64,000 nucleotides of DNA, from the NCBI GenBank assembly GCA_022402445.1, contig JAKRSF010000006.1, positions 137,243-201,242 on the forward strand, read 5' to 3'. Of the stretch, positions 51,916 through 53,417 are shown one piece after another. The position numbers and the translations under genes were made by a program. The stretch is from Cyanobacteriota bacterium. GTDB taxonomy: Bacteria > Cyanobacteriota > Cyanobacteriia > CACIAM-69d. How positions within the stretch are numbered: the stretch's first letter is position 1; the number at the start of each line of letters is the position of its first letter. A model generated the notes under the pieces. It made no database searches, was not told where the DNA came from, and was given only the letters and a program-made list of their open reading frames with translations.

Positions 51916-51921
51916 AAGGAG
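51916..51921 (+). promoter_or_regulatory. ribosome-binding site deciding the start at 51930
   Basis: AAGGAG lies 8 bases before the GTG at 51930. It supports this start over the ATG codons at 52023 and 52026. Confidence 0.7.
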
Positions 51922-51929
51922 TTGAGATT

Positions 51930-53417
51930 GTGGTTGCTTTCCTGGCCTCCCGTGGTGTTCCGTGTTCCGGTGGGGCGTTGAACCCTCGGGCGATCGCGCG
52001 GAGCCGGACACTGCGACGGTGGATGATGACCAGTACGGCCACCGCGATCGCCACGGCGACCTCCTTCATGGGAGGCGGCAGCGCCCAGGCCGGCAGCTTC
52101 ATCTCCGGCAGCAGCCCCGGTGAGTTTGTGACCCCCTCCGTTGTGGAGGCGTTTCTAGAGCCGGATGATCCCGTCAACTTCACCGTCGAAGTGGCCGTGG
52201 GCAATCCCCAGGCGATCGACCTGTTCCTGCTCAATGACCTGTCCGCCTCCTTTGATGACGACCTGCCCAATGTGCGCACGGCGGCGGGGCAACTGGTGGA
52301 TGTGCTGGAAACGTTGGCCCCGGAGGTGCGCGTGGGGGTGGGATCCTTCACCGATAAGCCGATCTATCCCTTTGGGGGCCTCTATCGCCACACGGATGGC
52401 CTCCTCTATGCCTTTGATGACTATGGCTACCAAACCAATCTGGCCCTGACGGACGATCGCGCTGCCCTGCAAACGGCGGTGGATGGCCTGCAAACCGGCT
52501 GGGGGCTTGATGCGCCGGAATCGCAACTGGAGGCGCTGTTGCAGGTGGCGGTGCGTAGCCGCACGGAGTTGGGCTTTAGGCAGGAGGCATTCAAGGCGGT
52601 GGTGCTCCAGACGGATGCCTGCTTCCATGTGGCCCAGGGGGAGACGGCCTTCCGCCTGCCGGATAGCTGCTATGGCGGGGGCGATCGCCTGGATCCCTAT
52701 GGCATTGGGCCGGATGCGACGCCCTTTGGGGTTTTGGACTATGAGCGGCTGGCCCTGTCCTGGGTGTCGGGCCTGACGGCCAATAATGGCGACGCGGTGC
52801 TCGATACCCAGGAGGATTACCCCGCGATCGCGATGGTGCGCCAGACGTTGCTGGAGGCGGGCATTGTGCCGATTTTTGCCGTCACCAACGCCGTCGGGTC
52901 CATCTATCAGGGGCTGGTGGATATCCTGGGGTTTGGGCAGGTGGTGGAACTGAGCGCCGACAGTTCTAACCTGGTGAGCGCCGTGCAGCAGGGGCTCCGG
53001 GCGGCCCTCAATGATGTGAAATTATTCGTCGAGGATGATGACTACGACTATGTGCGGCGGGTGGGCAGTGATCTGAGCGGCGAAAAGGAAGGGACCGATC
53101 TGGGGGTGGCCTCCGGCGATCGCGCCCGGTTCGAGATCACCCTGGAGGATCGCTCCGGCGATCGCCTGACGGGGGACGACACCCTCTATCTCACGGCCAC
53201 GGGCTATGGCCGCACGACGGTGAATGTGACGGTGCCGCGCCCCGCCCCGACGCCGACGCCGGCTCCAGAACCGGAGCCGGAACCGGAGCCAACCCCTGGG
53301 ACGCCGCCGGTCGATCCGGGCGATCGCGTTTCAGTGCCGGAACCGTCGGCCGTGGTGGGTCTCGGGGCGATCGCCCTGCTGCTGCGCGGCCCCCTGAAGC
53401 GGCGATCGCGCCCCTGA
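51930..53417 (+). CDS. secreted integrin-beta-I-like (VWA) protein with PEP-CTERM anchor
   Basis: A 495-residue exported protein. The signal peptide is unusually long and ends about SAQA, residue 54. Residues 95-355 align by eye with the I-like domain of animal integrin beta subunits. The MIDAS motif is D103-L-S-A-S107, followed by DDD (109-111) at the ADMIDAS place. DAPE (194-197), TDACFH (228-233), DYPAIA, IFAVTN (315-320) and LSADSSN follow in the same order. A calcium-type acidic region, a proline/glutamate linker and a C-terminal VPEPSAVVGLG + hydrophobic + KRRSR signal follow. The last is the PEP-CTERM sorting tag for exosortase. It should be surface-attached and bind metal-dependent ligands. 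No exosortase gene is in the window. Confidence 0.85.
   Translation: MVAFLASRGVPCSGGALNPRAIARSRTLRRWMMTSTATAIATATSFMGGGSAQAGSFISGSSPGEFVTPSVVEAFLEPDDPVNFTVEVAVGNPQAIDLFLLNDLSASFDDDLPNVRTAAGQLVDVLETLAPEVRVGVGSFTDKPIYPFGGLYRHTDGLLYAFDDYGYQTNLALTDDRAALQTAVDGLQTGWGLDAPESQLEALLQVAVRSRTELGFRQEAFKAVVLQTDACFHVAQGETAFRLPDSCYGGGDRLDPYGIGPDATPFGVLDYERLALSWVSGLTANNGDAVLDTQEDYPAIAMVRQTLLEAGIVPIFAVTNAVGSIYQGLVDILGFGQVVELSADSSNLVSAVQQGLRAALNDVKLFVEDDDYDYVRRVGSDLSGEKEGTDLGVASGDRARFEITLEDRSGDRLTGDDTLYLTATGYGRTTVNVTVPRPAPTPTPAPEPEPEPEPTPGTPPVDPGDRVSVPEPSAVVGLGAIALLLRGPLKRRSRP

Follow-up and report, generated by a model that had tools for sequence, protein, structure and literature searches.

An integrin beta headpiece homolog with a PEP-CTERM-type sorting tag in a cyanobacterium

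A 495-aa protein of a cyanobacterium is a true homolog of the integrin beta headpiece and represents a putatively PEP-CTERM/exosortase-sorted variant of a bacterial kind that is already known. Its gene (table 1) lies in a 64-kb stretch of DNA, hereafter the window, in which the HIP1 sequence GCGATCGC occurs 223 times, against about 2 copies expected, a cyanobacterial signature. Integrins, which anchor animal cells to what lies around them, are thought of as heterodimeric receptors of animals and protists. On balance, we favor a reading in which the protein is exported by Sec, processed by an exosortase, and functions as a single-chain, metal-dependent adhesin with an integrin beta headpiece. 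Cyanobacterial integrin-beta-like proteins themselves are known; what is new is a putatively PEP-CTERM-sorted form with hybrid and I-like domains, as well as the wide spread of the family.

Table 1. Features of the gene and its product, with positions in the window.
Feature	Position	Strand	Basis or remark
Integrin-beta-headpiece-like PEP-CTERM protein, whole gene including stop	51930..53417	+	495 aa, GTG start
Shine-Dalgarno-like AAGGAG	51916..51921	+	Sequence; 8 nt 5' of GTG
Putative N-terminal export signal region, aa 1-55	51930..52094	+	Inferred from sequence
Hybrid domain, first segment, aa 56-95	52095..52214	+	PDB profile alignment start, model strands, segment HMM
Beta I-like (VWA-type) domain, aa 96-361	52215..53012	+	PF00362, PDB matches
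MIDAS D103-L-S105-A-S107	52236..52250	+	Aligned with integrin DLSYS motif
ADMIDAS D110-D111	52257..52262	+	Alignment
D142, counterpart of SyMBS Asp (beta3 D158)	52353..52355	+	Alignment
G192-L-D194-A-P196-E197, MIDAS Glu and SyMBS loop	52503..52520	+	Gly192 in place of SyMBS Asn
T228-D229-A-C-F-H233, strand end with MIDAS Asp (beta3 D251)	52611..52628	+	Alignment
I-like domain insert, aa 237-283	52638..52778	+	Alignment; low model confidence, pLDDT about 43-67
Hybrid domain, second segment, aa 363-437	53016..53240	+	Segment HMM, model strands
Pro/Glu-rich linker, aa 438-468	53241..53333	+	Sequence
PEP-CTERM-type sorting tag (VPEPS, hydrophobic stretch, KRRSRP)	53334..53414	+	Layout; score below cut-off

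Profile searches place the protein in the integrin beta family. The Pfam model Integrin_beta (PF00362) matches with 130.7 bits (E 9.8e-38; cut-off 24.8), whereas VWA_2 gives 14.0 bits on the 495-aa protein, below its own cut-off, and the SIBA-E vWA model (PF24909) gives 31.8 bits against a cut-off of 27, far below the Integrin_beta score. The sequences that phmmer lists from the PDB are chains of integrin beta, with beta-7 the best (E 3.8e-26). A profile built from relatives, with the window protein left out, scores 242.7 bits on it, and 500 shuffled sequences score at most 4.5. With Integrin_beta rather than an ordinary VWA family as the best profile match, the domain is integrin beta I-like and not a generic VWA domain, as an earlier note on this DNA had proposed from seven motifs. 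All seven are present in the ORF and in the order given there: DLSAS (103-107), DDD (109-111), DAPE (194-197), TDACFH (228-233), DYPAIA (296-301), IFAVTN (315-320), and LSADSSN (341-347).

The likeness is wider than the I-like domain to which the earlier note had confined it, because a hybrid domain is also present. As judged from profiles and a structure model, the I-like domain is inserted in the hybrid domain, as in the integrin headpiece. The phmmer alignments to PDB chains start at aa 61-75, which lies ahead of the I-like domain and in the first integrin hybrid segment. When a headpiece profile of six sequences (the window protein and five relatives gathered from cyanobacterial genomes) is compared with integrin beta-2, there is one unbroken match that spans hybrid, I-like, and hybrid parts (residues 73-413, E 3.8e-52). 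HMMs of the two hybrid segments, made with the window protein left out, score 27.1 bits (first; best shuffle 7.8) and 66.8 bits (second; best shuffle 12.1) on it. Searched alone, the second segment has no significant match by sequence to a solved structure (integrin beta-2, 5e6v, ranks second with E 1.4), so the claim of a hybrid domain rests on the fold and the continuous profile.

The core (aa 56-443) was modeled with AlphaFold2 from an alignment of 22 sequences. In the model (pLDDT 83.6, pTM 0.84), strands of a hybrid sandwich are predicted to flank the I-like domain on both sides. Foldseek was run against the PDB, and each of the 50 matches that it listed is an integrin beta chain (4neh_B, E 5.6e-33); structure prediction, a check that the earlier note had suggested, thus returns an integrin beta headpiece. 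The TM-score is 0.84 when normalized by the beta-8 hybrid plus I chain 8vs6_B, and 0.84 of 349 residues amounts to ∼293 equivalents, a number that an I-like domain by itself could not reach; the predicted hybrid part must therefore superpose too. The insert in the I-like domain, of about 47 aa, holds Cys247, and Cys231 is just ahead of it. Two relatives (L040 and L041) have an insert at the same position but with a different sequence.

Metal-site residues were compared in an alignment of human beta-1, beta-2, and beta-7 with 81 bacterial members of the family. Residues D103, S105, S107, E197, and D229 align with the integrin MIDAS and are counterparts of beta-3 D119, S121, S123, E220, and D251. 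These columns, which include the four residues singled out in the earlier note (D103, S105, S107, and E197), are invariant or nearly so across the bacterial members. In the DLSAS motif, the Asp and second Ser are present in 81 of 81, and the first is Ser or Thr; the Thr, found in 13 members lacking a hybrid domain, is the only notable variation. The ADMIDAS aspartates D110 and D111 (beta3 D126 and D127) are kept. For SyMBS (beta3 D158, N215, D217, and P219), D142 (Asp in 81 of 81), D194, and P196 are present, but Gly192 replaces N215, as Gly does in 79 of 81 bacterial members; a complete SyMBS is a feature of animal integrins and no requirement for membership in PF00362. Of the three metal sites named in the earlier note, the MIDAS and ADMIDAS are complete in the alignment and the SyMBS is incomplete. 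Judging from these ligands, the MIDAS is predicted to bind a metal ion.

The ends of the protein are consistent with export and sorting. The putative export signal region has a basic n-region, an Ala/Thr-rich core, and SAQAG at its end, and the conserved part of relatives likewise begins at about aa 56. The C-terminus, VPEPSAVVGLGAIALLLRGPLKRRSRP, has the layout of a PEP-CTERM tag (VPEP, a hydrophobic stretch, and RRSR), though a degenerate one that scores 11.8 bits against the TIGR02595 cut-off of 16. Five of seven relatives (L027, L023, L030, L043, and L044) pass the model with 18.1-21.4 bits. A search of the window genome for an exosortase, as the earlier note had advised, found cyanoexosortase B (362 bits; cut-off 300), and five further PEP-CTERM matches are located elsewhere in this genome. 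Among seven other hybrid-bearing cyanobacterial genomes tested (G033, G387, G388, G213, G380, G318, and G118), six encode an exosortase and the lone exception is G388 (93% complete), in which the search found none. At the level of the genome, the enzyme and the further PEP-CTERM matches in the window genome support exosortase sorting of the integrin-like protein, which would be exported and have its tag processed.

The family extends far beyond the few cyanobacteria to which it had earlier been assigned. Among 84,980 species genomes scanned, at least 128 bacterial loci with the domain were recovered, in several phyla. The 80 of these 128 that were kept are mostly from Cyanobacteria and Alphaproteobacteria, with some from Beta- and Gammaproteobacteria and Myxococcota, and include single bins of Chlorobiaceae and Hydrogenedens. 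Within the phylum of the window, presence is patchy: 16 of 386 sampled genomes match, a count that includes three weak VWA controls (L035-L037) and one chance match (L038). In the window's own family, four of six genomes match. HMMs of the hybrid segments split the bacterial proteins sharply, with the second segment in 22 sequences (14 cyanobacterial, including the window's, and 8 proteobacterial) and no signal in nearly all others. In the family as a whole, the companions of the domain are cadherin-like, Calx-beta, RTX, TPS, and CHAT domains; the first three of these occur with hybrid-bearing relatives and are typical of secreted proteins.

The window genome (99.9% complete) has no matches to the FG-GAP (PF01839), FG-GAP_2 (PF13517), and FG-GAP_3 (PF14312) profiles. 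The integrin-alpha-like propeller that the earlier note had suggested looking for therefore did not turn up, the genome has no recognizable alpha partner, and the protein probably functions by itself, as a single sticky chain that depends on metal. Its headpiece (the hybrid domain with inserted I-like domain), Pro/Glu-rich stalk, and PEP-CTERM tag would be exported by Sec. Cyanoexosortase B most likely recognizes the tag and cuts it off after export, and the headpiece would then be displayed on the cell exterior or in extracellular polymer. The MIDAS would hold a Mg2+ or Mn2+ ion that binds a carboxylate of the ligand, which may be an acidic side chain of a protein or an acidic sugar, and the adjacent ADMIDAS ion would tune the MIDAS ion. 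Such a single-chain mode of adhesion would be nearer to that of an alpha I domain or Dictyostelium SibA than to that of a heterodimeric integrin. Neither a ligand nor a partner gene stands out. In the gene neighborhood, a gene for an ABA4-like membrane protein (PF14108; 51227-51703, minus strand) is divergent to the integrin-like gene and is the sole recurring neighbor, being also located beside the relatives in L040 and L041; it offers no functional lead.

Two other roles for the headpiece can be weighed against a single-chain adhesin. It could form a prokaryotic heterodimer with a diverged beta-propeller protein, and the genomes of some relatives (G387, G380, G318, and G118) do encode FG-GAP proteins. 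But the window genome lacks matches to all three profiles, and FG-GAP is missing from the gene-carrying genomes G033, G388, and G213, which shows that a propeller partner is not needed across the group. Moreover, the specificity-determining loop helps integrin beta contact alpha, and most bacterial members have 12-14 residues in the stretch that contains it, versus 28-29 in human integrins, although this stretch is longer in the window protein and a few relatives. We consider a heterodimer very unlikely. A structural or scaffold role within the extracellular matrix or a secreted complex, in a metal-stabilized assembly with other PEP-CTERM proteins, is a less favored but serious alternative, to which we give a modest chance. 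VWA domains can scaffold protein complexes instead of adhering, PEP-CTERM proteins are commonly linked to exopolysaccharide export, and both the additional PEP-CTERM proteins in the window genome and the patchy distribution are consistent with such a role. Retention of a full MIDAS and ADMIDAS, however, fits ligand binding better than a passive scaffold.

Alternative accounts of the protein's identity and origin fare worse. VWA is the superfamily of the I-like domain, and cyanobacterial VWA proteins (L035-L037) also have DxTxS and DAPE, so an ordinary VWA protein with a generic likeness to integrins could be imagined. Yet Integrin_beta is ahead of the VWA model by 116 bits, Foldseek lists integrin beta chains only among its best 50, and the VWA controls fall on a separate branch of the tree and have neither the ADMIDAS aspartates nor N285 nor the DY motif. 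The profile scores and controls lead us to reject a generic VWA protein, to which we assign next to no chance. Cyanobacteria could also have received an integrin beta gene from an animal in recent times. The patchy presence (16 of 386, including the four controls or chance matches) would be in keeping with such a transfer, but the gene's occurrence in most sampled genomes of the window's family, the several bacterial phyla that carry the family, and the absence of PSI, EGF, transmembrane, and cytoplasmic parts speak against it. In trees, a long branch leads to the human integrins, which lie outside the bacterial diversity. Distribution and tree together make recent acquisition from animals highly improbable.

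The homologous headpiece may instead bear on where the integrin head came from. We tentatively propose, as a scenario that is plausible but for now rather doubtful, that the head (hybrid and I-like domains with MIDAS and ADMIDAS) is an ancient adhesin module of bacteria that functioned without alpha; eukaryotes would have inherited or acquired it and later added a propeller partner, a third metal site, and transmembrane signaling parts. A single clade of hybrid-bearing bacteria and human integrins is neither supported nor rejected (AU p 0.16); these trees represent eukaryotic integrins by human sequences, which leaves the eukaryotic branch weakly placed. With the bacterial headpiece, structure and phylogeny can be used to test where the integrin head originated. 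With MIDAS and ADMIDAS intact and no recognizable alpha, a hybrid-plus-I-like headpiece from a free-living bacterium could also serve as a small soluble model for the beta headpiece alone.

Relative to animal integrin beta, the window protein shares the hybrid, I-like, hybrid order, five MIDAS residues, two ADMIDAS aspartates, the predicted fold, and the TDxxFH, DYP, IFAVT, and LSxDSSN signatures. It differs in that PSI, I-EGF, beta-tail, transmembrane, and NPxY tail regions are not among its Pfam matches, with a PEP-CTERM tag in place of the membrane helix, in the bacterial change of SyMBS Asn to Gly, and in that no alpha partner was found; in most relatives, the short specificity-determining loop also lacks the cysteine pair. 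Proteins resembling integrin beta chains were listed from cyanobacteria, Trichodesmium among them, in 2009 (PMC2651865), and a passage of PMC3192720 cites earlier work on them. They belong to the same bacterial family. The Trichodesmium erythraeum genome in our set (L024/L045) encodes hybrid and I-like domains, but its protein has cadherin-like and PPC domains whereas that of the window has the PEP-CTERM tag. Dictyostelium, which has no canonical integrin receptors, likewise has a single-chain adhesion protein that resembles integrin beta, SibA-E (PF24909), and PEP-CTERM relatives reach up to 63.5 bits with its profile. SibA spans the membrane and has NPxY motifs that bind talin (PMC9453864); neither part is among the Pfam matches of the window protein, which ends in a PEP-CTERM-type tag. 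With exosortase substrates, the window protein shares the VPEP motif, hydrophobic stretch, basic tail, and a cyanoexosortase B in the genome, but its copy of the tag scores under the curated cut-off. Nothing relevant that combines PEP-CTERM with integrin was found in openly licensed literature.

Individual loci also vary in composition. The I-like match has a broken frame in L107 and L110 (19 and 1 internal stops, respectively, in the joined match). In a Candidatus Hydrogenedens bin, L116 is a diverged member (26% identity) located after what appears by eye to be a subtilase-like region of the same protein. Two integrin-beta I-like domains are apparent in one 1328-aa ORF of L072. In a 1630-aa protein encoded by L022 (5859-10751, minus strand), a bare integrin-beta I-like domain is combined with a TPS secretion domain and, at the C-terminus, with a CHAT peptidase domain.
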